The translations under genes were made by a program, and so were the position numbers. The notes below the pieces were generated by a model. The model was not told the DNA's origin. It saw only the letters and a list, made by a program, of their open reading frames with translations, and searched no databases. A DNA stretch of 64,000 nucleotides from Glycomyces harbinensis (GTDB lineage: Bacteria > Actinomycetota > Actinomycetes > Mycobacteriales > Micromonosporaceae), in the NCBI RefSeq assembly GCF_900101745.1, contig NZ_FNAD01000013.1, positions 112,525 through 176,524 on the forward strand, read 5' to 3'. This document shows, piece by piece, positions 12,106 through 32,659 of this stretch. The number at the start of each line of letters is the position of its first letter. Positions within the stretch are counted from its first letter, which is position 1.

Positions 12106-13107
12106 GTGAGCGTCAGCGTGCTGTTCATCGGCGGTACCGGCCGGATCTCCACCTCGTGCGTGCGGGAGGCGGTCGCCCAGGGCATGGACGTCACCGTCCT
12201 CAACCGGGGCAAGACCAGCGAGCGCGCACTGCCCCCCGGCGTGACGACGATCGCGGCCGACGTCAACGACCCCGAGTCGGTCCGCGCCGCCCTCGGCGAC
12301 GCCTCCTTCGACGCGGTCGTCAACTGGGTCAACTTCACTCCCGCGCAGGTGCAGCGCGACATCGACCTGTTCTCCGGCCGGTGCGGCCAGTACCTGTTCA
12401 TCAGCTCGGCCTCGGCCTACCAGACCCCGCCCACGCACCTGCCCGTCGTCGAGTCCACGCCGCTGAAGAACCCCTTCTGGCAGTACTCGCGCGACAAGAT
12501 CGCCTGCGAGGAGCTGCTGACCGCCGCCTACCGCGACGACGACTTCCCGATGACGATCATCCGCCCCTCGCACACCTACGACGAGACCCTGCTGCCCTTC
12601 GACGGCGGCTGGACCGTGGTCGACCGCATGCGCAAGGGCAAGCCTGTCGTCGTGCACGGCGACGGCACCTCACTGTGGACGATCACCCACAGCCGCGACT
12701 TCGCGGTCGGCTTCACCGGCCTCCTCGGCAAGGAGGCCGCCGTCGGCGAGGCCTTCCACATCACCGGCGACGAGGCGCCCACCTGGAACCAGATCTTCGC
12801 CTACGTCGCCGACGCCGCGGGCGTCGAGGAGCTGAACCTGGTCCACGTGCCCTCCGACGCCATCGCCGCGGCCGACCCGAACTGGGGCGCCGGCCTCCTC
12901 GGCGACAAGGCGCACTCGATGGTCTTCGACAACGCCAAGGTCAAAGCCCTCGTCCCCGAGTTCGGCCGCAACACCACGCCGTACAAGCTCGGCGCGCGGG
13001 AGCTGATCGCCTGGTACGACGCCCACCCGGAGCAGCAGGTCGTCGACCCGGAGGTCGACGACCTGATGGACCGCCTCGCCGAGCGCTACGCGCCCCGGCC
13101 GCTGTAG
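12106..13107 (+). CDS. NAD-dependent epimerase/dehydratase (extended SDR)
   Basis: 333 residues from GTG 12106 behind GAAAGGGG. The N-terminal Rossmann motif is VLFIGGTGRISTSCVREA. The catalytic region is FISSASAYQTPP followed by YSRDKIACE, the YxxxK dyad of extended short-chain dehydrogenases (Tyr and Lys visible in QYSRDK). SHTYDE and the C-terminal half form the substrate domain. The family acts on nucleotide sugars or related hydroxy compounds; the substrate is unknown. Single gene. Its 3' end lies against, and may overlap antisense, the amidase-like gene at 12941-14860. Confidence 0.82.
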   Translation: MSVSVLFIGGTGRISTSCVREAVAQGMDVTVLNRGKTSERALPPGVTTIAADVNDPESVRAALGDASFDAVVNWVNFTPAQVQRDIDLFSGRCGQYLFISSASAYQTPPTHLPVVESTPLKNPFWQYSRDKIACEELLTAAYRDDDFPMTIIRPSHTYDETLLPFDGGWTVVDRMRKGKPVVVHGDGTSLWTITHSRDFAVGFTGLLGKEAAVGEAFHITGDEAPTWNQIFAYVADAAGVEELNLVHVPSDAIAAADPNWGAGLLGDKAHSMVFDNAKVKALVPEFGRNTTPYKLGARELIAWYDAHPEQQVVDPEVDDLMDRLAERYAPRPL

Positions 13108-14860
13108 ACCTTAAGTCCCGCACCAGTTCCCAGCCGTCCGCCACGAGGGCCGAGCCGTCATGCACGACGGCTCGGCCCTCGCGGACCTTGACCTTGTCGA
13201 CGTACACGCCCCGGCCCTGGTAGGCCGGGTCGGCCGTGTACCGCCAGCGCAGGAACATCGTCCCGTCGGGCACCTGCGCGCCCGCCTTGATCCACTGGCG
13301 CCCCGAGAACCCGGAGAACCGGCCGTCGGTCTCCCAGTGGTGGTCCTCGGTGCGCAGGTCCAGCGGCACCGGCGTCCACGCCTCGCCGTCCGGGCTCGCC
13401 TCCAGCGCGGCCACGTCCGTCGCCTCGGTGTCATACCAGAGCGCGAACGACGCCTCGGCGTCCAGGCTCGCCGTCGGCAGCACGGCCGTGAGCGTCGCGG
13501 TCGCGTCGTCGGCCTGCCCCGCGAACCACGCGTACTCGCCCGAGCGCGGCCGCACCGGGACCGCACGGCCCATCGGCCGGCTCGCCGCGCGCCGGTAGGC
13601 GCTCGCGGTGCCCCAGTTGCGGGTCGGGTGCACGCGGTTCGTCAAGAGCACCAGCAGCGTCCCGGCCAGCGGGTCGAGGACGATCGACGTCCCGGTGTAC
13701 CCGGTGTGGCCCACCGTGACCGGCGAGCTCATCGCGTCCATGTACCAGCGCTGGCCCAACTGCCAGCCCAGGCCCCGGGCGGCGCTCTCGCCCATCCCGG
13801 CGTTCTGGTCGGTGAAGACCAGGCGCGCGGTGGACTCGGAGAGGATCTCCGCGCCCCGGTAGCGGCCGCCGTTGAGGATCATCTGCCCGAACACGGCCAG
13901 GTCCCACGCGGTCGCGAAGACGCCCGCGTGCCCGGCGACGCCGCCGAAGGCCCACGCGTTCTCGTCGTGCACCTCGCCGCGGACCATGCCGCGCCCGGTC
14001 CACGGCTGGAACTCTGTCGCGGCCGTCCGGCCGGCCTCGGACGGGTTGTACCCGGTGTCCTTGAGCCCCAGCGGTTCGCAGATGATCTCGGTGACCAGCT
14101 CGTCCAGGGGCTGCCCGGCCACGGCCTCCAGGACCTTGCCCAGGACGATGAGGTTGAGGTCGGAGTACTCGTAGCCGCTGCCGGGCGGGCGCCGCAGGGG
14201 GTAGGCGTAGATCGCCTCCATGCGCGCCTGCTCGTCGGGCTTGTCGTACAGGTTGATGAACGCGATCATCCCGGAGGTGTGGCACAGCAGGTGCCCCAGC
14301 GTGATCGGGCTCTTCTCCGGATCGGACGAGTCGAAGTCCGGCAGGTACTCCACCACGGGGCTCTTGAGGTCGATGAGGCCCTCGTCGATGAAATGGCCGG
14401 TGACGGTGGCGGTGAAGAGCTTCGAGATGGAGGCGAGGTCGTAGACGGTGTCCTTCTCGGCCTCCTCCCACTGGTCCTCGGGCAGCTCGACCGCGGTCTT
14501 GGTCGCCTCGTCCCAGCTCTCGTAGCGCAGCTTGTGGCCCCCGGCCCGGTGCTCGACGACGACGCCGTGGCGTGCGGCCAGGACGGTGTAGCCGGGGAAG
14601 GAGGGGGCCGGGTCCGACATGAACGACTCGAGCTCGGGCACGATCCGCCCGATGTGCGAGGCGGTGAGCCGGGCCTCGCCGCAGGAGCCGTAACGGAGTC
14701 TGAGGGGGTGTTCGGGGAAGGTCACGTCGTAGGGTCCGGCTGTCGGCGGGCCGGTGAGTTCGGGCATGGAGGGGCGCTCCTCGGCGTTGGCGCGGGAGGC
14801 GAACGCGAGCGCCGAACAGATCGCCCCCGCCGCGCCCCCGAGCATGGTTCGACGCTGCAT
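12941..14860 (-). CDS. Secreted AmiE-like beta-lactamase-fold MurNAc-L-Ala amidase
   Basis: Up to 639 residues. The Tat-type signal is MQRRTMLGGAAGAICSALAF, ending ANA|EE. A beta-lactamase/DD-peptidase-fold domain has SISK (S144-K147), YSDLN and HTGYTG as its three active-site motifs. Residues ~440-560 resemble the MAM-like/immune-inhibitor C-terminal domain (FSGFSGRQWIKAG, RGVYVDKVKVREG). Gene order with namZ and nagZ matches Bacillus subtilis amiE-nagZ-namZ, where AmiE removes the stem peptide from MurNAc, so that role is inferred. The last ~70 residues are an Arg/Gly/Pro-rich run read antisense to the epimerase. A stop in the neighbouring frame at 13111, just after WELVRD, suggests the natural end is there and that a frameshift or base error exists. 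Confidence 0.75.
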   Translation of the reverse strand: MQRRTMLGGAAGAICSALAFASRANAEERPSMPELTGPPTAGPYDVTFPEHPLRLRYGSCGEARLTASHIGRIVPELESFMSDPAPSFPGYTVLAARHGVVVEHRAGGHKLRYESWDEATKTAVELPEDQWEEAEKDTVYDLASISKLFTATVTGHFIDEGLIDLKSPVVEYLPDFDSSDPEKSPITLGHLLCHTSGMIAFINLYDKPDEQARMEAIYAYPLRRPPGSGYEYSDLNLIVLGKVLEAVAGQPLDELVTEIICEPLGLKDTGYNPSEAGRTAATEFQPWTGRGMVRGEVHDENAWAFGGVAGHAGVFATAWDLAVFGQMILNGGRYRGAEILSESTARLVFTDQNAGMGESAARGLGWQLGQRWYMDAMSSPVTVGHTGYTGTSIVLDPLAGTLLVLLTNRVHPTRNWGTASAYRRAASRPMGRAVPVRPRSGEYAWFAGQADDATATLTAVLPTASLDAEASFALWYDTEATDVAALEASPDGEAWTPVPLDLRTEDHHWETDGRFSGFSGRQWIKAGAQVPDGTMFLRWRYTADPAYQGRGVYVDKVKVREGRAVVHDGSALVADGWELVRDLRSTAAGARSARRGGPSGRRPPGRRPAAPGGRRTRRSAPARRACTAWCCGRTRGRGL

Positions 14861-14883
14861 CGTGTCTCCTGGTTATCGTGCCA

Positions 14884-16134
14884 TCACTGAGCGGTGTGGC
14901 GATAGAGCAAATACGACTCTCTTTGCTCGGAAAACGCATCCAATTCCTCGGCCCACAGAGGTGCCAGATCGTCGACCTCAGCACCGTCCTCGATGGCCAG
15001 CCGCACCGCCTGGTTTCCGGTGAGCTTGTCCAGCCAGAACGACGTCACGTCCTGCGAGCGCCACCCGTACTGGGGGAACAGGCGGCGCTGCTCGATGATC
15101 ATCGCCAGGCCCGTCCGGATCGGGTCGAAGTCGCGCCGGTCGGTCACCTGGAGCTCGACGCCGCCGCAGACCTTGGTCGCCCACTTCGAGAACGTCGGCG
15201 TGAAGTACGCCTCGCGGAAGCGCGCCCCCGGCAGGCCCTGGACCGCCTCGGACCACGTGTGGTCGATCTCGGGCGCCCCGAGCAGCTCGAACGGCTTGGT
15301 CGTGCCGCGCCCCTCCGAGAGCGCGGAGGCCTCGAACAGGCACGTCCCCGGGTAGGCGATCGCGGTCGCGACCGTGGGCATGTTGGGGGAGGGCGCGATC
15401 CACGGCAGACCGGTGTCCTCGAAGTACATGTCCCGCTTCCAGCCGCTCATCTTCACCACGGTCAGGTCCGCCGGCTCGGGCAGGAACTCGTGGTTGAAGA
15501 AGCGGGCCAGCTCGCCCACGGTCATGCCGTGGCGCTGCGCGATCGGCTTGAGCCCCACGAACGTCGCGTGCTCGGGATGGAGCACCGGCCCGCTCGCGGC
15601 CCTGCCGGTCCCCGGGTTGGGACGGTCGAGCACGACGAACCGCAGGCCCAGCTGCCCGGCCGCCTCCAGCGCCAGGTACATGGTCCAGATGTAGGTGTAG
15701 AACCGCGCGCCGACGTCCTGGATGTCGAACACCAGGGTCTCGACCCCGGCCTCGGCCAGGAGCTCGGCCATCCGGTCCTTGTCGTTGTACGCGTTGTAGA
15801 CCGGGATGCCGGTCTTCGGGTCGAGGAAGAAGTCCTCGCCCTCGCCGGCCTGCGAGACGCCGCGGAAGCCGTGCTCGGGGCCGAACACGGCCACGATGTC
15901 GACCTTGCCGCTCTCGTGCATGAGGTCCACTTCGTGGCTCAGGTCCGGGAGCACGCCGGTCGGGTTGGAGATGACGCCGACCCTCTGGCCGGCGAGTTCG
16001 GCGAAGTCGTCGTCGGCGAGGACTTCGATGCCGGTCTTGACGCGGCGCCCGCCGGCGTGCGCGGGTACGGCCGCCGCGGTCGCGGCGAGTGCGGTGCCGG
16101 CGATGGCACTGCCGAGGAGTCTTCTGCGCTGCAC
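14884..16134 (-). CDS. namZ: NamZ-type (DUF1343) exo-beta-N-acetylmuramidase
   Basis: 416 residues with a Tat-type signal (MQRRRLLGSAIAGTALAATA ... AHA). The body is DUF1343: LAGQRVGVISNPTGVLPDLS near the mature start, then VAVFGPEHGFRG, KTGIPVYNAYN and VFDIQDVGARFYTYIWTMYL, as in B. subtilis NamZ (YbbC). That enzyme releases N-acetylmuramic acid from the non-reducing ends of peptidoglycan chains after NagZ has removed the terminal GlcNAc. Gaps of 9 bases from nagZ and 23 to the amidase gene place it in the middle of an operon. Length is normal. Function is inferred from family and context. Confidence 0.87.
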   Translation of the reverse strand: MQRRRLLGSAIAGTALAATAAAVPAHAGGRRVKTGIEVLADDDFAELAGQRVGVISNPTGVLPDLSHEVDLMHESGKVDIVAVFGPEHGFRGVSQAGEGEDFFLDPKTGIPVYNAYNDKDRMAELLAEAGVETLVFDIQDVGARFYTYIWTMYLALEAAGQLGLRFVVLDRPNPGTGRAASGPVLHPEHATFVGLKPIAQRHGMTVGELARFFNHEFLPEPADLTVVKMSGWKRDMYFEDTGLPWIAPSPNMPTVATAIAYPGTCLFEASALSEGRGTTKPFELLGAPEIDHTWSEAVQGLPGARFREAYFTPTFSKWATKVCGGVELQVTDRRDFDPIRTGLAMIIEQRRLFPQYGWRSQDVTSFWLDKLTGNQAVRLAIEDGAEVDDLAPLWAEELDAFSEQRESYLLYRHTAQ

Positions 16135-16143
16135 GGGTGCTCC

Positions 16144-17925
16144 TCAGTAGCTCAGGCCGTGGCCGAAGGCGAACAGGACCGCCTCCGGGTCGTCGGCGCG
16201 CGGGATGTCGACGGGCAGCTTCCCCTGCGGCGGCCTGCCGCCGAGGATGGCGCCCACGGCGGATTCGAGCCCGTCGGCGGCGTACGAGTAGGTTGCCAGG
16301 TAGGCGCTGACGTCGTCGGTGAAATGGGCGATGTCGTAGGGGTTCCTGACGCCGAGCGCGACCACCGGGACGCCCGTGGCGGCCAGTGCCTTGACGAGCG
16401 CGGTCTGGGTCGGGTTGGCGGCGACACCGTTGGTGGCCACCACGATCAGGCCCTGTCCCTCGGTGGCGGCGACCGCGGCATTGATCTGCGCCTGGGTCGG
16501 CGCGATCCCGGTGACGAGCCTGGTCGGCGACCAGCCGCGCTGCGTGAACTGGTCGCTGAGGACGGTCAGGGTGGTCTCGCCCCAGCCGGTGACGAGCACG
16601 GAGCCGCCGTCGGTGACCAGCGGCAGGACGCCGTCGTTGACGATCAATGTCGTGCTCTTGTCGCTGATCGCCTGCGCCGCTTCGAGGTGCTCGGGGATGC
16701 CGACGATCTCGGCCACTTCGCCGGGGTCGGCGAACGGGTCCCGGAACAGGCCGAGGCGGTACTTGAGGTCGAGGATGCGGGTGACCGACTCGTCGATGCG
16801 CCGCTCGGTGAGCTCGCCTTCGGCCACGGCGGCGAGCACCGCGTTGTAGGCCAGGTCGATGTCCATCGGCATGAGGAGCACGTCGACGCCGGCCTGGAGC
16901 GCGAGCACGGGCACGCGGTCGTCGCCGTAGCCCTCGCGCACGCCCTCCATCTGGAGCGAGTCGGTGTACACGACGCCGTCGTAGCCCAGCTCCTCGCGCA
17001 GCAGTCCGGTGAGGATCGGCCCGGAGAGCGTGGCGGGGCGCAGCGACTCGTCCAGGGCCGGGAACTGGATGTGCGCGGTCATGACCGCGTCGACGCCGGC
17101 CTCGACGGCGGCGCGGAACGGCGGGGCGTCGATCTGCAGCCACTCCTCGTAGGTGTGGTCGATGCGCGGCAGTTCGGCGTGGCTGTCGTCCTCGGTGTCG
17201 CCGTGGCCGGGGAAGTGCTTCACGGTCGAGCCGAGGTCGCGGCGGGCCTGGTAGCCCTCGACCTGGGCGGTGACGAAGGCGGCGACGTGCTCGGCGTCGG
17301 ACCCGAAGGACCGCACGCCGATCACGGGGTTGGCCGGGTTGACGTTGACGTCCGCGTCGGGGGCGAAGTTCTGGTTGAGGCCCATGGCGCGCAGCTCGGT
17401 CCCGGCGATGACGGCCGCCTCGCGCGCGGCCTCGGGGTCGTGGGTCGCGCCGAGGGCCATCGCGCCGGGCAGCTGGGTCGCGGGCGGGCCGATGCGGGTG
17501 ACGAGGCCGTGCTCCTGGTCGGTGGCGATGAGCAGCGGCGTCCCGCACGCGTCGGTCGCGGCCTCCTGGAGCCCGTTGGAGAGCGCGGTGATCTGGTCGG
17601 GGTTCGCGACGTTGTTGGACCAGGCGAAGTAGATGATCCCGCCGAGCTGGTACTTCTCCAGGAGGGCGACGCCGTTGTCGACCCCGTGCGCGGCCTGGTT
17701 GTTCGCGACGTCAGCGGCCGCGGTGGTGTCGGCGGTCTGGCCGTACGCGTACGTGGTGAAGAGCTGGCCGACCTTCTGCTCCAGGCTCATGGCCTTGAGG
17801 CGGCGCTTGACGAACCGGCGCCGCTCTTTGTCACCGCCGTGCGCTTGCGCGGTGCCGGCGGCGGCCACCGCGGCGGCGGCGCCCAGGGCGGCGGCGAGCA
17901 CGGTCCGTCGGGGATGCGTCTCCAT
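16144..17925 (-). CDS. nagZ: Secreted two-domain GH3 beta-N-acetylglucosaminidase (NagZ)
   Basis: 593 residues with a Tat-like signal (METHPRRTVLAAALGAAAAV ... AQA). The GH3 barrel carries KHFPGHGDTEDDSH, which holds the His of the NagZ His-Asp dyad, and GVVYTDSLQMEGV with the nucleophile Asp. The remaining ~220 residues are the second alpha/beta domain (SVLVTGWGETTLTVLSDQF), as in the long secreted NagZ of B. subtilis rather than the single-domain cytoplasmic E. coli enzyme. Role: removal of terminal GlcNAc from wall fragments outside the cell. A 155-base gap separates it from ldcA and carries a possible second promoter of the cluster. Confidence 0.9.
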   Translation of the reverse strand: METHPRRTVLAAALGAAAAVAAAGTAQAHGGDKERRRFVKRRLKAMSLEQKVGQLFTTYAYGQTADTTAAADVANNQAAHGVDNGVALLEKYQLGGIIYFAWSNNVANPDQITALSNGLQEAATDACGTPLLIATDQEHGLVTRIGPPATQLPGAMALGATHDPEAAREAAVIAGTELRAMGLNQNFAPDADVNVNPANPVIGVRSFGSDAEHVAAFVTAQVEGYQARRDLGSTVKHFPGHGDTEDDSHAELPRIDHTYEEWLQIDAPPFRAAVEAGVDAVMTAHIQFPALDESLRPATLSGPILTGLLREELGYDGVVYTDSLQMEGVREGYGDDRVPVLALQAGVDVLLMPMDIDLAYNAVLAAVAEGELTERRIDESVTRILDLKYRLGLFRDPFADPGEVAEIVGIPEHLEAAQAISDKSTTLIVNDGVLPLVTDGGSVLVTGWGETTLTVLSDQFTQRGWSPTRLVTGIAPTQAQINAAVAATEGQGLIVVATNGVAANPTQTALVKALAATGVPVVALGVRNPYDIAHFTDDVSAYLATYSYAADGLESAVGAILGGRPPQGKLPVDIPRADDPEAVLFAFGHGLSY

Positions 17926-18026
17926 TGACAGGGCTCCAGTCTGTGCGGGAATCGGGGGCTCGGAACATACCTCGCCGGTCCCTTTTCGACCGGGTATGAC
18001 CCGATCCGCTCATCCTGGCAGAAATC

Positions 18027-18069
18027 TTCATGTCAAGGCAAGACTACGGAGTGCATTTTCATGTGAAGG
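18027..18069. repeat. Direct repeat TTCATGTSAAGG upstream of nagZ
   Basis: TTCATGTCAAGG (18027-18038) and TTCATGTGAAGG (18058-18069) are direct copies 31 bases apart, about three helical turns. The first copy contains TGTCAA, a perfect TTGACA -35 box on the minus strand facing nagZ; its -10 box is poor. A third, related ATGTGAAG core lies at 29163 next to the promoter of the first gene of the cluster. Confidence 0.45.
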
Positions 18070-18080
18070 AACGATAACGA

Positions 18081-19004
18081 TCAGTGCAGGGCCGGTTCGT
18101 CGAAATGGAGGGTCCCCGCGTCGGCGTCCAGAGTCGCCTTGAGTCCCAAGGGGATCGTGAGCGAAAGGTCGCAATGCCCGAATCCGAACTCCTCCACGAC
18201 CGGGACGCCGAGGTCCCCGAGCCGGTCCTGGAGCACCGCGCGGGTCTCCTCGTACGGGCCGCAGTCGGCCCAGGAGCCGAGCACGATCCCGGCGAGGCCG
18301 TCGAGCCATCCGGCGCGGCGCAGCTGCGTGAGGGCGCGGTCGAGCCGGTACGGCGCCTCGCCGGTGTCCTCCAGCAGCAGCAGGCCCCCGCCGAGGTCGT
18401 CGCGGTGCTCCGCGGTCCCGATCCCGGCGGCCAGCAGCGTCAGCGTCCCGCCGACGGTGACGCCGGAGGCCTTGCCGCCCACCATGGTCCGCGCGGTGGG
18501 GGAGTCGAGCTTCTGCACCCGCTCCGGCTCGAACAGCGTCTGGCGCAGGTGCTCCCGCATCGCGGCGCTGTTCGCGAACGCCGACCAGGTGGGCATGGGC
18601 CCGTGGATCTGCGCGACCCCCAGGCGCAGGCCGACCGCCTCGTGGAGCGCCGTCACGTCGCTGAAGCCCACGAGCGCTTTCGGCTCGGCCCTCCGCAGCC
18701 GTTCCCAGTCGACGAGGTCGAGCATCCGCTGGGCGCCGTAGCCGCCGCGCGCGGCGATGACGGCCGCGAACGACGGGTCGGCCCAGGCCTCGGTGAAGTC
18801 GGCGGCCCGGTCCCGGTCGGTCCCGGCGAGGAAACCCGTGGTCTCGGTCGCGTGCGGCAGCACCACCGGATCGAGCCCCCAGCCGCGCAGCACCGCGAGC
18901 CCGGCGTCGAACCGCTCTGCGGGCGAAGGGCTCGCGGGGGAGACGATCGCGACCCGGTCGCCCTCGGCGAGGCGTCGGGGCCGAACCAGCGGTGCGAGGC
19001 TCAC
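18081..19004 (-). CDS. ldcA: LD-carboxypeptidase (peptidase S66, LdcA/MccF family)
   Basis: 307 residues, no signal peptide. The serine is in VGFSDVTALHEA, the Glu in LEDTGEAPYRLDR and the His in EEFGFGHCDLSLTIPLG, the S66 triad. RPRRLAEGDRVAIVSPASPS is the standard N-terminus. LdcA removes the terminal D-Ala from tetrapeptide muropeptides in the cytoplasm. Its GTG overlaps the S9 peptidase stop (GTGA), so it is translated from the same message. It is the last gene of the cytoplasmic part of the cluster. Confidence 0.9.
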   Translation of the reverse strand: MSLAPLVRPRRLAEGDRVAIVSPASPSPAERFDAGLAVLRGWGLDPVVLPHATETTGFLAGTDRDRAADFTEAWADPSFAAVIAARGGYGAQRMLDLVDWERLRRAEPKALVGFSDVTALHEAVGLRLGVAQIHGPMPTWSAFANSAAMREHLRQTLFEPERVQKLDSPTARTMVGGKASGVTVGGTLTLLAAGIGTAEHRDDLGGGLLLLEDTGEAPYRLDRALTQLRRAGWLDGLAGIVLGSWADCGPYEETRAVLQDRLGDLGVPVVEEFGFGHCDLSLTIPLGLKATLDADAGTLHFDEPALH

Positions 19005-21001
19005 GGGTGCAGCTCCAGTGCGAAGTCGGGGCCCTCGAAGCCGAAGACCCGGGCGTACAGGGCGTGCTCGGCGAGCACGGCGTCCACGATGGTCGAATCC
19101 CGCCGGAACCCGTGCTGCTCGCCCTCATAGGTGCGGTAGGCGTGCGGGACGCCCTTGCCCGCGATGCGCTCCAGCAGCCGCTCGGACTGCGCCGGCGGGC
19201 AGATCTCGTCCTCCAGGCCCTGGAGGAGGAGGAACGGGACCTTGATCCGGTCCGCGTGGTCCACAGGGGACCGCTCCTGTGAGCGCTCCTCCAGCACCTC
19301 GGGCGGGCCGACGAGCGAGTGCACGTACTGCGCCTCGAAGTCGTGGGTGTCGTCGCCGGTCCACCCCGACAGGGACAGGATCGGGTACTTGACCACCGCG
19401 CACGCGTAGAGGCCTTCGGCCGCAGGCGAAGTGAGCGACGCCGCCGAGGTCCACCCGCCCGCGCTGCCGCCCCGGATCGCCAGTCGCGCCGGATCGGCCG
19501 TGCCCTCCTCGGCCAGCGCCCGGGCGACGGCCGCGCAGTCCTCGACGTCGACCACGCCCCACTGCTCGCGCAGCCGCTCGCGGTACTCGCGCCCGTACCC
19601 GGTGGAGCCGCCGTAGTTGACCTCGGCGACGCCGATGCCGCGCGAGGTGAAGTAGGCCAGCTCCATGTCGAGCACGGCCCGCACGTTGCTGGTCGGGCCG
19701 CCGTGGACCCAGATCGCGTACGGCGGCAGCTCGCCTTCGGGCGCTTCGTGTCCGGGGTTGCGCGGCGGGTAGACGTGGGCGTGCACCTCGCGCCCGCCCG
19801 GACCGGTGAACGTCCGGTGCTCGGGGACCGGGTAGTAGGCCGGGTCGACCGCGTCGGCGTGCGCGGCCGCGATGACGCGCGAGGTGCCCTTCGCGGTGTC
19901 GACCTCGACCACCTCGTAGCCGCCGGCGGCGCTCGCGGCGAGCCCGAAGACCCTGTCGCCGACCGCGACCAGCCCTGCGGCCCAGTCGGTCCAAGGACCC
20001 TCGACCGGATTCAGCTCGCGGTCCCAGGCGTCGAAGACGCCGAGGCGGCTCTCGCCCCTGCCGTGGACGGTGGCGATGTCGCCGCTGGCGAGGATCTGGA
20101 ACCAGCGCATGCCCAAGCCCCACATGGGGCCCGCGAACTCCTCGTCCGCGGGGTGGATCTCGCCGGTGTTGCCGTTCTCGGGGTCGACCCAGTGCAGGTT
20201 CCACCAGCCCGTGCGGTCGCCCGCGAAGACGATCGTGCCGTCACCGGCCCATTCGACCTGCGCGATCGACTCGCCCTCGCCGCCGGCGACCGTGGCGGTC
20301 TCGACCAGCCGGCCGTCCGGGGTGATCTCGGCGACGCGCAGTTCCGTCTCGTCCCAGGGCATGTGCGGGTGGTTCCAGGCGATCCACGCGGCCGACGAAC
20401 CCGAGCGGCTGAGCTTCGGCCCGGTGAGGAACCGGTAGGAGTCGTCGGTCAGCTCCCGGATCTTCGACCGGTCGCCCGCGGCCGAGCCGTCGAGCGGGAC
20501 GGCCGCGAGGACGCGGCGCACGTCGGTGGGCCGCTCCCCGGTGAACTCCTCCAGGACCGCCCAGACCTCGTCGAACTCCTCCACGACCACCGGCTCGCAC
20601 CACCGCAGTCCGGCGCTGATCGCCGGGAGCGGCGTCAGCGGCACCGGCTCGGCGCCGCGGTTCTCGGCGGCACCGTCGGGCTCGAACCGGTAGAGCCGCT
20701 GGTCGGCGTAGTTCGTGAAGACCACCAGCGGCCCGTGCTCGCCGATGGTCCCGGCCCAGGGGTGGCCGCCGTACTCGTGGACGCGGTTGCGCACGTTCCA
20801 CGGCGCGGGCAGGACCGACTCGGCCGTGCCGTCCGGGCGGCGCCGGACCAGCGCCTTGCGCCCGCCCTCGGTCGGCCTCGGCTCGGTCCACCACAGCTCG
20901 CCGCCGATCGCGCCGAGATGTGCCGGTCTGCCGTCCGAAGCGGCCACCATCGCCGTGGTGATCGGGGATTCCCAAGTGCCGTAAGGGGACTGCTGCACCA
21001 T
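19001..21001 (-). CDS. S9C-type prolyl-oligopeptidase-family serine peptidase
   Basis: 666 residues, no signal. The N-terminal ~400 residues are beta-propeller-like (repeats around WVDPENGNTGEIHPADEEF). The C-terminal hydrolase has GGSAGGWTSAASL (nucleophile Ser), QGLEDEICPPAQS (Asp) and TYEGEQHGFRRD (His). The family contains oligopeptidases and acylaminoacyl-peptidases restricted to short peptides by the propeller. GAGGAG precedes ATG 21001. It lies between the M20 peptidase and LdcA in a muropeptide-salvage context, so imported cell-wall peptides are the likely substrates; that is inference. Confidence 0.87.
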   Translation of the reverse strand: MVQQSPYGTWESPITTAMVAASDGRPAHLGAIGGELWWTEPRPTEGGRKALVRRRPDGTAESVLPAPWNVRNRVHEYGGHPWAGTIGEHGPLVVFTNYADQRLYRFEPDGAAENRGAEPVPLTPLPAISAGLRWCEPVVVEEFDEVWAVLEEFTGERPTDVRRVLAAVPLDGSAAGDRSKIRELTDDSYRFLTGPKLSRSGSSAAWIAWNHPHMPWDETELRVAEITPDGRLVETATVAGGEGESIAQVEWAGDGTIVFAGDRTGWWNLHWVDPENGNTGEIHPADEEFAGPMWGLGMRWFQILASGDIATVHGRGESRLGVFDAWDRELNPVEGPWTDWAAGLVAVGDRVFGLAASAAGGYEVVEVDTAKGTSRVIAAAHADAVDPAYYPVPEHRTFTGPGGREVHAHVYPPRNPGHEAPEGELPPYAIWVHGGPTSNVRAVLDMELAYFTSRGIGVAEVNYGGSTGYGREYRERLREQWGVVDVEDCAAVARALAEEGTADPARLAIRGGSAGGWTSAASLTSPAAEGLYACAVVKYPILSLSGWTGDDTHDFEAQYVHSLVGPPEVLEERSQERSPVDHADRIKVPFLLLQGLEDEICPPAQSERLLERIAGKGVPHAYRTYEGEQHGFRRDSTIVDAVLAEHALYARVFGFEGPDFALELHP

Positions 21002-21038
21002 CGTGGGCTCCTCGCCTGTAACTCGTCGCGTGTGCCTG

Positions 21039-22355
21039 CTATGCGTGCCGCAGGAAGTCGTCCAGGACCCGCAGGCCGAACCGGAGGCCTTCGACCGGGA
21101 CCCGCTCGTCCACTCCGTGCGCCAGCCTCCCGTACCCGAACTCCGGGGGCAACCCCAGGGGGGAGAAACCGTAGCCGGTGATGCCCAGTTCGGAGAACTG
21201 CTTCGCGTCGGTGCCGCCGGACATGCAGAACGGCACCGGGTGCCCGTCGGGGTCGAACTTGCGGATCGCCTCGCGCATCGCGGCGAACGTCGGCGTGTCC
21301 ACCGGTGCGCCGAGACCCGACGTGCGGTGCTGGAACTCCCAGTGCACGTCCGGCCCGCACAGCTCGTCCATCGTGGCCGCGAACTCGTCCTCGAAGCCCG
21401 GCAGCATCCGTCCGTCCACTTCGGCGTTCGCGTGCTCGGGGATCACGTTGACCTTGTACCCGGCGTGCAGCACCGTCGGGTTGGCGCTGTTGCGCAGCGT
21501 CGACTCCACCAGCTGCGCGGCCGGACCGAGCTTGCCGATCAGATCGTCGACGTGCGCGAAGTCGGGCTCGGCGCCGTAGAGCGCGCCCAGCTCGGTCAGC
21601 GCGGCGCGCACCGTCGGCGTCAGGCGCACCGGCCACTCGTGCGCGCCGATGCGCGCGATGGCGGCCGCGAGTTTGCTGACCGCGTTGTCCGGGTTGGCCT
21701 TCGACCCGTGCCCGGCCCTGCCGCGGGCCGAGAGCTTCAGCCACGCGGTGCCGCGCTCGCCCGCCGCGATCGGATAGATCCGCAGGTCGTTCCCGCCGTG
21801 GAAGGTGAACCCGCCCGACTCGGAGACGCCCTCGGTGCACCCGGCGAACGCGTCGGCGTGCGACTCGGCGAGGTAGCCCGCGCCGTACTCGGCGCTGGCC
21901 TCCTCGTCGGCGGTGAACGCGATGACGATGGGCCGGCGCGGCTTCACGCCTTCGCGAGCCCAGGACCGCACGGTCGCCAGGACCATCGCGTCCATGCTCT
22001 TCATGTCGAGCGCCCCGCGGCCCCAGAGCATCCCGCCGTTCCCGTCGTCGGTGATCTCGCCGGAGAACGGGTGCACCGACCAGTCGGCGGCCTCGGCGGG
22101 CACCACGTCGAGGTGCCCGTGCACCAGCAGGGCCGGGGCGTCGGGCTCCGACCCCTCGATACGCGCGATCACGTTGGAGCGCAGCGGGGCCTTCTCCACG
22201 ATCGCGCCCTCGATCCCCGCGTCGAAGAGCTTGCCGACCGCGTACTCGGCGGCCTCGCGCTCGTTCCCGTCACCGCCGCCGCGGTTGGTGGTGTCGATCC
22301 GGATGAGCTCCGAGGTGAACGTGACGACCTCGTCGAGCGCTTGCGCGTCAACCAT
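21039..22355 (-). CDS. M20-family metallodipeptidase/deacylase
   Basis: 438 residues, cytoplasmic. The di-zinc motifs are in order: LLVHGHLDVVP (His, Asp), GRGALDMKS (bridging Asp), TADEEASAEYG (catalytic Glu pair), SESGG, and a final HG near the C-terminus (YGRLAHGVDERV). The dimerisation domain lies between (GRAGHGSKAN). The family hydrolyses dipeptides or N-acyl amino acids. It overlaps the upstream M55 gene by 8 bases, so it is translationally coupled. It probably finishes degradation of dipeptides released by the D-aminopeptidase; stereospecificity is unknown. Confidence 0.87.
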   Translation of the reverse strand: MVDAQALDEVVTFTSELIRIDTTNRGGGDGNEREAAEYAVGKLFDAGIEGAIVEKAPLRSNVIARIEGSEPDAPALLVHGHLDVVPAEAADWSVHPFSGEITDDGNGGMLWGRGALDMKSMDAMVLATVRSWAREGVKPRRPIVIAFTADEEASAEYGAGYLAESHADAFAGCTEGVSESGGFTFHGGNDLRIYPIAAGERGTAWLKLSARGRAGHGSKANPDNAVSKLAAAIARIGAHEWPVRLTPTVRAALTELGALYGAEPDFAHVDDLIGKLGPAAQLVESTLRNSANPTVLHAGYKVNVIPEHANAEVDGRMLPGFEDEFAATMDELCGPDVHWEFQHRTSGLGAPVDTPTFAAMREAIRKFDPDGHPVPFCMSGGTDAKQFSELGITGYGFSPLGLPPEFGYGRLAHGVDERVPVEGLRFGLRVLDDFLRHA

Positions 22356-23177
22356 ATTGCTCCTCCATCGCCTGCGAGGCGATCGTCGTGACGGCCTTGA
22401 AGCACCGCATGGCCTCGTACATGGTCGGCAGCGTGAACGCCGCCCGCCGCTCCCCGGCCGGCGCCACGCCGGGGATCACCGACACGGCCTGCACCAGGTG
22501 CTCGGCGTCGAACTCGACGTCGATGCGGTGCGGCCCGGCCCGTTCGGGCTCGCGCCGGCCCGCCAGCCGCACCGCCTCGGTCGCGCCCTGGCGGAGCAGC
22601 TCGGCGCTCACCGTGGGGGTGAAGCACTCCGCCGCGTACCGCGACACCGCGCGCTTGACCGCGACGCCGACGGCGTCGGGCGCGTAGTCCTCGGCGTCCT
22701 CGATCGTCCGGTCGTCGCCGGTCACCAGGATCACCGGCACGCCGTACTCGGCCGCGAGCGCCGCGTTGAGCCGGCCCTCGCTGGCGCGGACCCCGTTGAG
22801 CCACACCGACGTCAGCGTGTTCGCGAGATACGTGTGGGCCAGCACCCCTTCGGCGCCCGCCCCGGCGTGGTAGCCCAGGAAGACCACGCCGTCGACGTCG
22901 CCCTCCTGCACGCCCTCCATCATGGACAGCTCCTTGTGCCGTCCGGTGATCATGGTCGCGGCGTCGTGAAGCCGCTCCAAGAGCAGGTTCCGCATGGACC
23001 AGTGGGCCTCGTTGACGAGGACCTCGTGGGCGCCGTCCGACAGCACGCCCTCGATGACGGCGTTGACGTCCCCGGTGAACAGGGGCCGCATCCGCTCCCA
23101 GCCGGGCCCGCCCGGCAGGACGTCCGCGGGGCACGTCACGCCCGTCGCGCCCTCCATGTCGGCGCTGATGAGGATCT

Positions 23178-23181
<4 letters not shown>
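22348..23181 (-). CDS. dppA: M55 D-aminopeptidase (DppA family)
   Basis: 277 residues from a GTG overlapping the ATPase stop (GTGA). MKILISADMEGATGV has the DxE zinc ligands. VLVNEAHWSMRNLL and GVVFLGYHAGAGAEG supply the remaining ligands of the M55 decamer-forming enzymes. B. subtilis DppA cleaves D-Ala-D-Ala and D-Ala-Gly-Gly; its gene opens a dipeptide ABC operon, as this one adjoins one. Here it would act on D-amino-acid-containing peptides brought in from peptidoglycan. No signal peptide. Confidence 0.9.
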
Positions 23182-24264
<1,083 letters not shown>

Positions 24265-24275
<11 letters not shown>

Positions 24276-25263
24276 CGGGTTCCCCTTCCTGAGCCACGAA
24301 GCACGCACTGACGCGCGCCGGTCCCTCTCCGGCGGCGCCGGGCACCGCCAGGAGCGCCGGAACCTCCTCGCCGCACCGCTCCACGGCCACGGCGCACCGC
24401 GGGCGGAACGCGCAGCCGTCCGGCAGGCGCACCGGGTCGGGCGGATCCCCGGCCAGGCCCCCGGGGCGCTTGCGCGAAGCCGGGTCCCCGATCACCGGGA
24501 ACGCCGCCCCGAGCGCGGCCGAGTACGGGTGCCGCGCGTTCGCGAACACCTCGTGCGCCGGACCCTGCTCGACCACCGAACCCGCGTACATGACCGCGAC
24601 CTCGTCGCACACCTCCGAGAGCACCGACAGGTCGTGGCTGATCATGACCAGCCCCACGCCCCGCTCCGTCACGAGCCCCGAGATCAATTGCAGCACTTGG
24701 GCCTGCACCATCACATCGAGCGCGGTCGTCGCCTCGTCGGCGATGATGAGGTCCGGGTCGCACGCCAGCGCCATCGCGATCATCACCCGCTGGCGCTGCC
24801 CGCCGGACAGCTCGTGCGGGTAGGACCGCGCCCGCGAGGACGGCAGGCCGACCCGCTCCAGCAGTGCCTCGGCCCGCTCCGCCGCCTCGTTCGGGGAGAT
24901 CCCCTCCTCGTGCAGCAGGATCGGCTCGGCCACCTGCCTCCCGATCCGGTGCACCGCGTTGAGCGAGTGCATCGCGCCCTGGAACACGATCGAGGCGCCC
25001 GTCCAGCGGACCGCCCGCAGCCGGCCCCAGCCCATCGTCAGCAGGTCCTCGCCGTTGAGCAGGATCTCGCCGGTCACCTCGGCGCTCTTGGGGAGCAGCC
25101 GCAGCACCGCCATCGCCAGCGTCGACTTCCCGCAGCCGGACTCACCCGCGATGCCGAGCGTCCTCCCGGACTCCACCTTCAGGTCCACGCCGCGCACGGC
25201 GGGGATGCGCCCGCGCGAGCCCGTGTAGGTCACGTGCAGGTCCTTGAACTCCAGCAGCGTCAC
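24265..25263 (-). CDS. dppD: Oligopeptide ABC transporter ATPase (DppD/OppD type)
   Basis: 332 residues, GTG start overlapping the permease stop (GTGA). Walker A is GESGCGKSTLAMAVL, the signature HELSGGQRQRVMIAMAL and Walker B LIIADEATTALD, followed by the C-terminal extension GCAFRPRCAVAVERC that marks peptide-type importers. It is a cytoplasmic subunit of the same transporter as the neighbouring genes. Confidence 0.9.
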
Positions 25264-26171
25264 GACTGCTCACCTCGCAGCCTCGGATTGAACACGGCCT
25301 CCAGCGCCCGCCCGCACATCATGAACGCGAGCACCACCAGCAGGATCGCCAGGCCCGGCGGCAGCAGGTACCACCACGCGTGCGCCGACACCGCCCCGTT
25401 GCTGGAGGCGCGGTTGAGGATCGAGCCCCACGAGACCACGTTCGGGTCGCCCAGCCCCAGCCACGCCAGCGAGGACTCCATGAGGATCGCCGAGGGCACC
25501 AGGAGCGTCGCGCTGGCGAGCACCAGCGGCAGGACGTTCGGCAGGATGTGCTTGGTCATCTGGTGCCAGTGCCCCGCCCCGAGCGCCTTGGCGCGCTCCA
25601 GGTACGGCCGCGCCTGCACCGTGAGCGTCTGGGCCCGCACGAGTCTCGTGGTGCCCGACCAGGACACCATCGCGATGACCAGGATCGTGGTGGACATGCT
25701 GCGCCCGAGCACGGCCAGCAGCGCGATCGCCACGACCAGGCTGGGCAGCACCATGAACCAGTCGGAGAAGCGCAGGGCGATCCAGCCGTACCAGCCGCCG
25801 ATGTGCCCGGCGGTGACGCCGATGGCGGTGCCGACGAGGATCGCGACCACCGTCGCGGTGAGTCCGATGAGGAGCGACAACCGGGCGCCCCAGAGCGTCA
25901 GCGCCAGGATCGAGCGGCCCACCTCGTCGGTGCCGAGCGGGAAGCCGGCGCTGGGCGGCTCCATGCGCCCGCCGGTGGCCTGCGTGACCGAGAGCTGCGA
26001 CTCGTCGACCAGGATCGGGGCGGCCAGCGCGAGGATCACGATGGCGGCCAGCAGGAACAGGCCGATCATGCCGGTGCGCTGGGAGCGGTAGGCGTTCCAG
26101 GAACGCGTGAAGGACTGCCGCCTGCGCGCCCATCTGAGGGAGCGCGGGGAGACCGGAGTCGTGGTCGTCAT
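25260..26171 (-). CDS. dppC: Oligopeptide ABC transporter permease (DppC type)
   Basis: 303 residues with six predicted membrane helices. The N-terminal OppC/DppC extension is present (SFTRSWNAYRSQRTGMIGLF), followed by the periplasmic-side loop with GFPLGTDEVGRSIL. The EAA-like ATPase contact loop is ERAKALGAGHWHQMTKHILP. It starts seven bases after the DppB stop. With DppB it forms the channel of the importer. Confidence 0.9.
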   Translation of the reverse strand: MTTTTPVSPRSLRWARRRQSFTRSWNAYRSQRTGMIGLFLLAAIVILALAAPILVDESQLSVTQATGGRMEPPSAGFPLGTDEVGRSILALTLWGARLSLLIGLTATVVAILVGTAIGVTAGHIGGWYGWIALRFSDWFMVLPSLVVAIALLAVLGRSMSTTILVIAMVSWSGTTRLVRAQTLTVQARPYLERAKALGAGHWHQMTKHILPNVLPLVLASATLLVPSAILMESSLAWLGLGDPNVVSWGSILNRASSNGAVSAHAWWYLLPPGLAILLVVLAFMMCGRALEAVFNPRLRGEQS

Positions 26172-26178
26172 GGTCGTG

Positions 26179-27237
26179 TCAGCCGGACCTTCTGATGCGT
26201 GGGTCGATGAACCAGTAGAGGATCTCCGCGCCCAGCACCGCGAGGATGGTCGAGCTGGAGAACAGCACGAACAGCGCCTGGAGGACGGGCCGGTCGGGGT
26301 AGAAGATCGACTGGACGAACAGGCTGCCGAGCCCGGGCCAGCTGAAGACGGTCTCGGTCACGATCGAGCCGTTCACGACCCCGCCGAGGGCCAGGAACAC
26401 CAGGGTCACCGTGGGCAGCAGCGCGTTCGGCACCGCGTGCTTGCGCCGCACCTCGTCGTCGCGCAGCCCCTTGGCGCGCGCGGTCGTGAGGTAGTCGCTG
26501 CCGATCTCGTCCAGCAGGGACGAGCGCATGATCATGAGGTACCCGGCGTAGACGACCGCCGTGTAGGTGAGCACCGGCAGCACCAGGTGGTAGCCGATGT
26601 CGGCCGCCTGGGACCAGAAGTCCGGCGGCGTGCTCGGCGAGCGCATCCCGTTGACCGGGAACAGGCCCAGGTACCTGGCGAAGACCAGGATGATGATCAT
26701 GCCGAGCCAGAACGTGGGCGCCGAGTACAGCAGGAGCCCGGTCGCGACGTGGCCCTTGTCGAAGCGCGTGCCCTGCTTCCAGCCCGCGCGCGTCCCGATC
26801 CAGAACCCGAGCACGACCGCCAGCACCATGCCGGTGCCCGAGAGGATGAGCGTGGCGGGGAGCCGCTCGACGATGAGGTCGAAGATCGGCCGGCGGTACT
26901 GGAACGACTCGCCGAGGTCCATGGTGAGGGTCCCGGTGATGTAGTCCCAGAACTGCTGCCACATCGGCTGGTCGAGGCCGAGTTCGGCGCGCATCGCGGC
27001 GCGCTCCTCGGGCGAGACCGGGCGCTCGCGGGTGAGCTGGTCGATCGGGTCCCCGGCGATGAGCCGGAAGATGAAGAACGAGGAGAACAGCACCAGCAGC
27101 AGCGACACGGCGGCGCCGCCGACGTGCTTGAACAGGTACCGCCCGAAGCCTGAGGAGACGCGCCCGCCGGGCCTGGAGCGCCCCGCGGACGGGGCCTCGG
27201 TGGAGGCCCCGTCCGCGGTCGACGAACCGTCCGTCAT
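26179..27237 (-). CDS. dppB: Oligopeptide ABC transporter permease (DppB type)
   Basis: 352 residues from ATG 27237, which overlaps the substrate-binding protein stop (ATGA). An open frame continues far upstream, but that part is the binding-protein gene in the wrong frame. A ~30-residue Ser/Gly-rich cytoplasmic tail precedes YLFKHVGGAAVSLLLVLFSS. The typical RLIAGDPIDQL and the long extracellular loop before helix 2 are present, and the ATPase contact loop is LTTARAKGLRDDEVRRKHAV. Confidence 0.9.
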   Translation of the reverse strand: MTDGSSTADGASTEAPSAGRSRPGGRVSSGFGRYLFKHVGGAAVSLLLVLFSSFFIFRLIAGDPIDQLTRERPVSPEERAAMRAELGLDQPMWQQFWDYITGTLTMDLGESFQYRRPIFDLIVERLPATLILSGTGMVLAVVLGFWIGTRAGWKQGTRFDKGHVATGLLLYSAPTFWLGMIIILVFARYLGLFPVNGMRSPSTPPDFWSQAADIGYHLVLPVLTYTAVVYAGYLMIMRSSLLDEIGSDYLTTARAKGLRDDEVRRKHAVPNALLPTVTLVFLALGGVVNGSIVTETVFSWPGLGSLFVQSIFYPDRPVLQALFVLFSSSTILAVLGAEILYWFIDPRIRRSG

Positions 27238-29048
27238 TCGCGCTCGTCCGCCGTCTTCCTGCGCTGGAGCACGAAGACGATCGCGCCGGCGGCCACGACG
27301 ACGACCGCCGCGGCGACCGCGATCCAGACCCACATCGGGGTCCCGCCCTCGTCCTCGGCGTCGGCCGGCTGCGCCGTGACGTACGCCCACGCGTAGCCCT
27401 GCTGGCCGGTGATCATGCCGCCCTCGCTGGGCTGCATGGTCATGCCGGTGATCTTGTCGCTGTTGTACGCCTCCAGGACGTTCTGGTAGTAGAGGTAGAT
27501 CACCGGGGTGTCCTCGTACATCAGCCGCTGCTGCTCCCTGACGAGCTCGGCGCGCGCCTCGGGGTCGGACTCGACCTTCTGCTGCTCGTGGAGCGCGTCG
27601 AACTCGGCGTTGCAGTAGTTGTTCTCGCTGGAGCGCTCGGTGCCGTCGGTGAGGGTCGGCAGCACCGCGCACGTGTGCATGCCCAGCTGCTCGGTCGGGT
27701 TGGGGCCCACGCCCCAGCCCGAGAAGGCGATGTCGAACTCGCCGAGGTAGGCCAGGTCGTTCAGGGTGCCCTGCTCGATGGCCTCGGGCGTGATCTCCAG
27801 GCCCAGCTCGGCCCACCACTCGGACACGAACTGCGCGATCGTGGCGTAGTCGGTGCTGTCGGCGTGCTGGTAGAAGCGGAAGCTCAGCGGCTCGCCGGTG
27901 CCCGGCATGGTCCGGATCCCGTCGTCGCCGCGCACGTACCCGGCCTCGTCGAGCAGCGCGTTCGCCGCCTCGATGTCGAAGTCGAGCACGGCGTCGCCGC
28001 CGTCCCAGTGGTACTGCTCGAAGATCTCGGGGATGATCGAGGTCGCGGGCTGCCCGTTGCCGTCGAGCACGGTGTCCACGAGTTCCTGCTTGTCGATCGC
28101 CATGTGCATGGCCTGTCTGACGATCGGGTCCTTGAGCGCGGGGTGCCCGTCGCCGAACTCGGTGCCGTCCTTCGTCACCGAGTTGTAGTTGATGGTGAGC
28201 GAGACGTACCGGCGGCCCTGCGCGTTGTTGACCGTGATGCCGTCCTGGCCCTCCAGGGCCCCTATCTGGGCGGGGTTGAGGCCGCTCACGATGTCCACTT
28301 CGCCCGCTTCGAGGGCGGCCACCGCCGCGTCGCTCTCCTCGTAATAGTCGAAGACGACCTCGTCGAAGCCGGGAGCGCCGTCCCAGTAGCCCTCGTTGGC
28401 CTCGAGCGTGATGAACTCGCCCGTCTCGTACTCGGTGACCTGGAACGGGCCGGAGCCGACCAGCGGGAGCTGGTTCGCGTCGTCCGCGGACGGGTCGGGG
28501 TAGGTCGACCAGACGTGCTCGGGGACGACGAACACCTCGCGGGTGAGCACGTCCCAGGGGGAGGGCTGGGCGAGGGTGAGGACGAACGTGGTGTCGTCGG
28601 GGGCCTCGGCGCTGACCAGGTTCCCCGCGAAGTCGATGTTCCAGTCGCGGATCGCCTGGTTCTCGATGAGCAGGCCGTAGGTGTAGGCGACGTCCTGGGC
28701 CGTCAGGGGCTCGCCGTCCGACCACTCCACGCCCTCGCGGATCGTGAACGTCCAGGTGAGACCGTCCTCGGACTCCTCCCACTCGGTCGCCAGACCCGGC
28801 TCCGGCTCGTAGTCGGCGCCCATGCGCACGAGGGTCTCGTACGTCATGAGGCTGGTGTTGTAGGTGATGACGAACCGTCGCTTGAACGGGTTGAAGGTGT
28901 CGACCTCCTGGTCCGTCGCGATGAGCAGGCTGTCGGTGTCGTTCTCCTGGGCCGCGGCGCTCGGGGCGGCGACCGCGAGCGCCCCCGCCGACAGCAGCAG
29001 CGCGGCTGCGGCCGAGAGGCACCGCCGCATCAGGGCATGGGGATTCAT
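27234..29048 (-). CDS. Peptide ABC transporter substrate-binding protein with C-terminal membrane anchor
   Basis: 604 residues from ATG 29048 (GAGGAA upstream; a TTG at 29057 is possible). The signal peptide spans MNPHALMRRCLSAAAALLLS to SAAAQE. It is an SBP_bac_5 fold: DTFNPFKRRFVITYN, YETLVRMGADYEPEPGLATE, GVEWSDGEPLTAQDVAYTY, HMAIDKQELVDTVL. No lipobox is seen. Instead a transmembrane helix (MWVWIAVAAAVVVVAAGAIV) and a basic tail lie at the C-terminus, so the protein should be anchored by its C-terminus. It is the first gene of the cluster and sets the specificity of the importer, probably wall-derived peptides. Confidence 0.88.
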   Translation of the reverse strand: MNPHALMRRCLSAAAALLLSAGALAVAAPSAAAQENDTDSLLIATDQEVDTFNPFKRRFVITYNTSLMTYETLVRMGADYEPEPGLATEWEESEDGLTWTFTIREGVEWSDGEPLTAQDVAYTYGLLIENQAIRDWNIDFAGNLVSAEAPDDTTFVLTLAQPSPWDVLTREVFVVPEHVWSTYPDPSADDANQLPLVGSGPFQVTEYETGEFITLEANEGYWDGAPGFDEVVFDYYEESDAAVAALEAGEVDIVSGLNPAQIGALEGQDGITVNNAQGRRYVSLTINYNSVTKDGTEFGDGHPALKDPIVRQAMHMAIDKQELVDTVLDGNGQPATSIIPEIFEQYHWDGGDAVLDFDIEAANALLDEAGYVRGDDGIRTMPGTGEPLSFRFYQHADSTDYATIAQFVSEWWAELGLEITPEAIEQGTLNDLAYLGEFDIAFSGWGVGPNPTEQLGMHTCAVLPTLTDGTERSSENNYCNAEFDALHEQQKVESDPEARAELVREQQRLMYEDTPVIYLYYQNVLEAYNSDKITGMTMQPSEGGMITGQQGYAWAYVTAQPADAEDEGGTPMWVWIAVAAAVVVVAAGAIVFVLQRRKTADERE

Positions 29049-29131
29049 GGGGTGCAAGTTCCTCGCTTCTCGTTTCGGGCGCCGGGCGCGCTCACGGCAG
29101 CGGGCGCGCCGGGTCCTCGATGTACCGATCA

Positions 29132-29160
29132 GAATGACGGAACACTTCTTGAGTTGTCAA
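29132..29160 (-). promoter_or_regulatory. Promoter of the transporter/peptidase operon
   Basis: On the minus strand a consensus TTGACA (29155-29160) and TCATTC (29132-29137) are 17 bases apart, in AT-rich sequence. ATGTGAAGAAA at 29163-29173 lies just upstream of the -35 box and resembles the repeat before nagZ. Confidence 0.55.
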
Positions 29161-29218
29161 CGATGTGAAGAAAGTTTTCATTGCTGCAATATGCGAAGGA
29201 CCCGAACTTCCGAACCCG

Positions 29219-30990: not shown

Positions 30991-31015
30991 CCCGAACGCC
31001 CGGAGGGAAACCACC

Positions 31016-32635: not shown

Positions 32636-32659
32636 AGCACCACGAGCGGAGGAGGGAAG

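Follow-up and report, generated by a model that had tools for sequence, protein, structure and literature searches.

Why should a peptide importer and four peptidases share a gene cluster with three enzymes that are predicted to be exported and would strip peptidoglycan, when neither MurQ nor a kinase for N-acetylmuramic acid (MurNAc) is encoded in that cluster? The question is raised by a 64,000-nucleotide stretch of the genome of the soil actinomycete Glycomyces harbinensis, here called the window (contig C26:112525-176524 of a 6.17-Mb genome), in which twelve genes, all on the minus strand, occupy positions 12941–29057 in window coordinates. In the order of transcription they encode a substrate-binding protein (SBP), two permeases, two ATP-binding cassette (ABC) ATPases and proteins of the M55, M20, S9 and S66 families, followed after a 155-bp gap by NagZ, NamZ and AmiE. 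M55 and NamZ are each present in a single copy in the genome. We call the part from SBP to S66 operon A and the last three genes operon B. The promoters of both carry a predicted operator of the type that stands at murQ, and both operons are probably opened, during the recycling of wall sugar, by the MurR-type regulator whose gene adjoins murQ. The predicted regulon, which would couple the salvage of wall sugar to that of wall peptides, is what is new here; neither a Glycomyces wall-salvage regulon nor a MurR-controlled peptide importer found a match among the open PMC titles and abstracts listed.

The operator-like element at murQ and at the cluster

The window's genome carries murQ, which encodes a predicted MurNAc-6-phosphate etherase, on contig C25, together with genes for a second NagZ (NagZ2), a GH25 protein, an Amidase_2 protein, the RpiR-family protein RpiR1, a BadF-type kinase, a second RpiR-family protein (RpiR2) and an ABC sugar importer. 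The RpiR1 gene is divergent from murQ and adjoins it in 20 of 20 fetched Glycomyces MurQ loci; the remaining genes are also found in most of these loci, some of which are cut by contig ends. A TGAA-N7-TTCA palindrome lies in the region between RpiR1 and murQ, and it recurs in SBP promoters and in promoters of the cluster-type NagZ (NagZ1). At operon A the element spans 29131–29180 on the minus strand and scores 25.4 bits with a matrix derived from 20 MurQ sites of Glycomyces. Its parts are box 1 (29166–29180), a TTGACA hexamer (29155–29160), box 2 (around 29140–29149) and a –10-like CATTCT (29131–29136). The element of operon B, at 18012–18061 on the same strand, scores 15.7 bits and has the same layout, with box 1 at 18047–18061, its right half degenerate, and box 2 around 18021–18030.

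The element was followed through 61 related genomes, 22 from Glycomyces and 39 others; the presence of NamZ and M55 was also compared in a class-level set of 147 further genomes, a few of which are shared with the first set. Named relatives of the M55 locus are from Glycomyces in six of seven loci. In the window's genome (G000), exact copies of TGAAANYTYNCTTCA occur only before MurQ and before SBP, with none for the reversed control and one further place at one mismatch. The 22 Glycomyces genomes hold 39 matches to TGAARNYTYNCTTCA, distributed over SBP (15), MurQ (15, two of them assigned via coordinates from hidden Markov models), NagZ1 (5) and places elsewhere (4, in G009, G014, G016 and G018), compared with 2 for the reversed control. 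The other 39 genomes give 12 matches, one of which is the SBP promoter of G034, and 4 for the control. At a threshold of 15 bits the MurQ matrix recognizes 13 of 13 SBP promoters, 16 of 20 NagZ1 promoters and 16 of 17 GH25 promoters; the counts are 0 of 19 for NagZ2, 0 of 16 for the kinase, 0 of 19 for the sugar-importer SBP and 3 of 19 for RpiR2. Only 1.5% of random 215-bp windows of the tested loci, true sites included, reach this threshold, and 100 column-shuffled matrices recover on average 0.34 of the 33 SBP and NagZ1 promoters, with a maximum of 4.

Wherever a Glycomyces genome has the SBP (20 of 22), its promoter scores at least 16.1 bits, and eight of these 20 promoters were unseen when the motif was chosen (G005, G006, G013, G015, G016, G018, G019 and G020). 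Together with a site in Natronoglycomyces, this supports the claim of an earlier note on this DNA that the peptide importer is part of wall salvage. SBP and NagZ1 promoters also have a layout in common: box 1 is followed, five bases on, by TTGNNN, then by another box with GAAG and, 18 bases past TTGNNN, by a –10-like hexamer. Written as a 50-bp expression, this layout occurs at 28 places in 1.51 Mb, namely 13 SBP promoters, 15 NagZ1 promoters and no other place. It misses the SBP promoters of G015 and G020 and the NagZ1 promoters of loci L047, L052, L057, L061 and L068.

Several points weigh against common control by a MurR-type protein and a role in harvesting wall peptides. The shape of the motif was picked after the SBP, NagZ1 and MurQ promoters had been viewed, and the tests were not fully blind; related genomes are also not independent samples. 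Box 1 of NagZ1 in the window is degenerate (TGAAAATGCACTCCG, 15.7 bits) and gives no exact match, and the NagZ1 promoter reaches 14.5 bits in G004 and G009, 11.9 in G025 and 11.2 in G034. No promoter-linked copy of the element was found in 20 class-level loci, where the matrix gave scattered matches (L109, L112, L114, L122, L124 and L127), none of them assigned to a promoter of these operons. RpiR1 falls below the cut-offs of the curated NCBI models of MurR type (by a wide margin for PRK15482, with 97.9 against 408 bits, and with 172.3 against 378 for PRK11337) and is therefore called MurR-like rather than MurR, and RpiR2 could be an alternative binder of the element. Genome G015 keeps operon A without M55 (L149, 5036–15117) and has no M55 match elsewhere. 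The SBP fold resembles MppA and DppE, but also binders of nickel, heme, EDTA and chitosugars. Finally, a YkfB-type epimerase and an NlpC/P60 peptidase are not among the Pfam families of the scanned cluster proteins, the rest of the genome not having been searched for them.

An alternative is that operon A serves general peptide scavenging and lies beside the wall enzymes by chance, the element belonging to a broader nutrient regulator. The varied ligands of the nearest solved SBP relatives would fit such a role, as would the lack of a gamma-D-Glu-specific peptidase among the families of the scanned cluster proteins and the occurrence in other bacterial families of the peptidase set with no operon B nearby. 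We nevertheless consider this explanation unlikely, since few copies of the element lie outside the promoters of MurQ, SBP, NagZ1 and GH25, and since S66 and M55 are families associated with bonds of D-amino acids.

Three further observations concern the element and its surroundings. The GH25 promoters that reach 15 bits lie in the MurQ locus (L043, L084–L101), and a pair of lysozyme (GH25) and amidase may belong to the regulon of the MurQ element. Divergent from operon A, at 29281–34348 on the plus strand, is a trio of genes for an AspT-type exchanger, an aminotransferase-fold protein similar to aspartate decarboxylase and a second AspT-type exchanger; the intergenic region with the operon A operator is common to both. 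The trio is beside SBP in L007–L009, L047, L051, L053, L054 and L151, and was not found in L006, L010 or L012. Regulation by DasR was considered and set aside, since its dre-like consensus (ACTGGTCTAGACCAGT) has no match in the window at up to three mismatches.

Probable transcription units and a proposed history of their adjacency

The eleven junctions of the cluster comprise five overlaps of 4–8 bp, one overlap of 44 bp and gaps of 7, 37, 155, 9 and 23 bp, so that the description of the genes as mostly overlapping by 4–8 bases, which fits five junctions, was too strong. Apart from the junction between S66 and NagZ, the range is from the 44-bp overlap to the 37-bp gap. The S66–NagZ gap is open in all 14 loci in which operons A and B are joined, measuring 111–616 bp in thirteen and 2808 bp in one (lengths that count the stop codon and give 158 bp for the window), and it contains a strongly conserved block with promoter-like features. 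A similar block precedes NagZ where NagZ–NamZ–AmiE stands alone. The cluster is therefore likely to consist of two operons, A from SBP to S66 and B from NagZ to AmiE. One joined locus, L049, has an additional gap of 1.4 kb between M55 and M20. Separate and unrelated transcription of the halves had been named beforehand as grounds for refuting a common role; they do look separately transcribed, yet one promoter layout is common to both. The window has neither tRNA genes nor Rfam families.

A single transcript from SBP to AmiE, with the block in the gap as a leftover of an old NagZ promoter, would be consistent with the strand and gene order, which are the same in the 14 joined loci, and with the decay of NagZ1 box 1 in joined genomes. 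We judge it improbable, because the gap is open in every joined locus and the –35, box 2 and –10-like parts stay conserved.

Among the 22 Glycomyces genomes the two halves are joined in 14 and present but apart in three (G012, G015 and G021). In G019 the region is broken by contig ends, G001 and G003 have the enzyme set only, and in G010 and G020 the importer block is present but NamZ is missing. Both FastTree trees place the 14 joined genomes together with G019 in a single clade, with a support of 0.955 in the peptidase tree but only 0.293 in the NagZ–NamZ–AmiE tree. NamZ and M55 are both present in six of the 39 other relatives, where none were seen within 20 kb of each other, one of these genomes (G026) being on short contigs. 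In the class-level set NamZ occurs in 26 genomes and M55 in 36 (one below the cut-off); 22 genomes have both, compared with about 6 expected if they were independent and with kinship uncorrected. None of these 22 has the pair within 20 kb on one contig, although contig breaks may hide some. Conservation of the neighborhood is limited to one Glycomyces clade, and the joined arrangement of A and B was seen nowhere else. The S66–S9–M20–M55 set, on the other hand, is whole in eight of ten M55 loci fetched from the 36 class genomes, a ninth being cut by a contig end and one lacking it, and it is complete in two other families sampled.

Genomes in which the halves are unlinked suggest an order of events. 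In G034, which we take to be Natronoglycomyces albus, about 0.7 Mb separate the importer from the enzyme set, which adjoins MurQ; even so, the matrix gives 29.9 bits at the SBP promoter and 21.6 bits in the region between RpiR1 and MurQ. In G012, G015 and G021 the SBP site is likewise kept, at 16.1–19.2 bits. With the site retained in these four genomes, the link between importer and salvage does not rest on proximity, and shared control thus seems older than the adjacency of operons A and B. On balance we favor a scenario, with some reserve, in which Glycomycetaceae have one MurR-type regulon that takes the wall sugar as the signal for harvesting wall peptides, comprising the sugar locus, the exolytic enzymes, the GH25/amidase pair, the stem-peptide importer and the four-peptidase line. 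The operator would have come first, and a single later event, in the common ancestor of a Glycomyces clade, would have made the operons neighbors.

Gene products and the proposed salvage route

Gene families were assigned by Pfam scan, and stricter subfamily calls were made with NCBIfam models and their cut-offs. The scan agrees with the families originally read from this DNA (beta-lactamase fold, NamZ, GH3, S66, S9, M20, M55 and importer). As also proposed there, a DppBCDF-type importer with its binding protein heads the cluster. It consists of an SBP_bac_5 protein of 607 residues (27234–29057; PF00496, 317 bits; pLDDT 85.1), a DppB-like permease (26179–27237) assigned from its open reading frame and from orthologues in place in related loci, a DppC-like permease (25260–26171; BPD_transp_1, OppC_N), and DppD- and DppF-like ATPases (24265–25263 and 23178–24308; both ABC_tran and oligo_HPY). 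The SBP has no lipobox, as judged by eye, and ends in a predicted membrane helix (576–605). Its fold, modeled with 38 proteins of the best 120 of 1164 found, was dropped as evidence on the ligand, being common to binders of peptides, nickel, heme, EDTA and chitosugars. In an alignment it has WGVG where DppA has WTGD. The Asp of the latter motif holds the amino end of the peptide, and AppA also lacks it; we draw no conclusion from the motif.

Downstream of the importer lie an M55 D-aminopeptidase-like protein (22348–23181; PF04951, 303.7 bits; DppA 1hi9, 1.4e-39), the family of B. subtilis DppA, an M20 metallo-hydrolase of the PRK07906 subfamily (21039–22355; 636.6 bits, cut-off 382), an S9 aminopeptidase-like protein (19001–21001; PF00326) and an S66 LD-carboxypeptidase-like protein (18081–19004; PF02016, PF17676). 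The S9 protein closely resembles PDB 3azo (903 bits), entered as 'Aminopeptidase' and presumably puromycin hydrolase, although a literature search listed no paper on that link. The S66 protein is on the LdcA side of its family, scoring PA5198, which we take to be LdcA, at 118 bits and MccF at 82 bits. A role for operon A in taking up and breaking down antibiotics of the peptide or aminoacyl-nucleoside type, as closeness to 3azo and the membership of MccF in S66 might suggest, is highly improbable given this preference for LdcA, a MurQ-type element at operon A and an importer that would bring the drug into the cell.

Operon B encodes the exolytic trio in one gene block: a GH3 NagZ-like glucosaminidase (16144–17925; PF00933; B. 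subtilis YbbD/NagZ, 302 bits) that retains the KHFPGHGDTEDDSH motif, a NamZ exo-muramidase-like protein with NamZ_N and NamZ_C (14884–16134; PF07075, 258 bits; PF20732, 165 bits), and an AmiE/PBP4B-like serine hydrolase (12941–14860; PF00144, 215 bits; PF20773, 38 bits) with the serine amidase fold and SISK at residue 144. The best NCBIfam match of the last is PBP4B, below its cut-off (161.9 against 385 bits). All three have twin-arginine translocation (Tat)-like starts by eye (MQRRTML, MQRRRLL and METHPRRTVL, each followed by a hydrophobic stretch) and none is seen on S66, S9, M20 or M55, in line with the signals and their absence as first described.

The AmiE-like protein has a MAM-like domain after the hydrolase domain, aligning to about 577–582 in many relatives. 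Its frame overlaps a convergent epimerase gene (12106–13107) at 12941–13107 and ends in an Arg/Pro-rich tail. Alignments end at residues 570–597 in most relatives and reach 613–637 in L052, L061, L067 and L126; a frameshift is possible. In G010, a genome without NamZ, an AmiE-like gene covering residues 1–420 of 639 directly follows S66 (L053, 4265–5488) and may be a vestige of the joined arrangement or an intermediate stage.

In the MurR-type regulon proposed here, NagZ, NamZ and AmiE would be exported and would trim peptidoglycan outside the cell to N-acetylglucosamine (GlcNAc), MurNAc and stem peptides, NagZ and NamZ trimming the sugars and AmiE freeing the peptide. NamZ activity is known from B. 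subtilis. Extracellular trimming and peptide release have been reported for B. subtilis AmiE and NagZ (PMC5061867). The sugars would enter through the MurQ locus, by way of an ABC importer whose SBP, at 517.3 bits, exceeds the NgcE equivalog cut-off of 399.65 bits, the BadF-type kinase and MurQ; the MurQ locus examined yielded no gene for a phosphotransferase system (PTS). The absence of MurQ and of a MurNAc kinase is true of the cluster, but MurQ and a kinase are encoded on contig C25, and the view that peptides are taken instead of sugars does not hold against a conserved MurQ–kinase–NgcE-importer locus with its own NagZ paralogue elsewhere in the genome. RpiR1 would bind the element, and the inducer would be MurNAc-6P, the signal reported for MurR of E. 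coli (PMC5061867). The SBP would capture stem peptides, and the DppBCDF-like transporter would carry them into the cell. There, S66 would release the terminal D-Ala by cutting its bond to diaminopimelate, and S9 would take off the first residue. In N. albus this residue is glycine, which is described as typical of the family (PMC8289206). The remaining peptide would be the substrate of M20 and M55.

Relation to known systems

The uptake of wall stem peptides by Gram-positive bacteria is poorly assigned. Throughout the genus Glycomyces, a common DNA element links an importer and peptidases to MurNAc recycling, even at a distance, which makes the predicted regulon testable, and the actinobacterial S66–S9–M20–M55 set is a candidate degradation line for wall peptides.

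Individual parts of this arrangement have counterparts elsewhere. In Agrobacterium, the peptide-type ABC importer YejBEF with YepA is described as acting in wall recycling; there, in a Gram-negative organism, muropeptides are imported and the YepA gene lies apart from the transporter genes (PMC9790009). For NanR of S. pneumoniae, an RpiR-family regulator, a preprint describes a near-palindrome of the TGAA..TTCA type with a degenerate downstream half-site (PMC12713135), although effector and spacing differ and the element here is predicted from sequence. In E. coli murQ-murP-yfeW the RpiR-type gene murR is likewise divergent from murQ, and yfeW encodes PBP4B, the family matched by AmiE below its cut-off; unlike here, no peptide importer is described in the cited part of that report (PMC5061867).

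Two further counterparts are loci of B. subtilis. The murQ-murR-murP-amiE-nagZ-ybbC (namZ) cluster, as described, has the same three exolytic genes (PMC5061867), and in Natronoglycomyces murQ and a MurR-type gene are near the enzyme set as well. In contrast, most Glycomyces enzyme sets, that of the window's genome included, have left murQ and joined a peptide importer, and no PTS gene was seen in the MurQ locus examined. In the dpp-ykf region, as described, M55 and S66 likewise stand with an ABC importer of the Dpp type; the permease was called unidentified in that 2010 report (PMC2954226). Here S9 and M20 replace the epimerase YkfB and the NlpC/P60 peptidase YkfC, and the operator is of the MurQ type. 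DppE has reportedly since been seen in a structure with a wall tripeptide. The cluster would thus work like the dpp-ykf and amiE-nagZ-namZ modules combined, while being filed as neither, because its first part is without YkfB and YkfC and its second without linkage to murQ.

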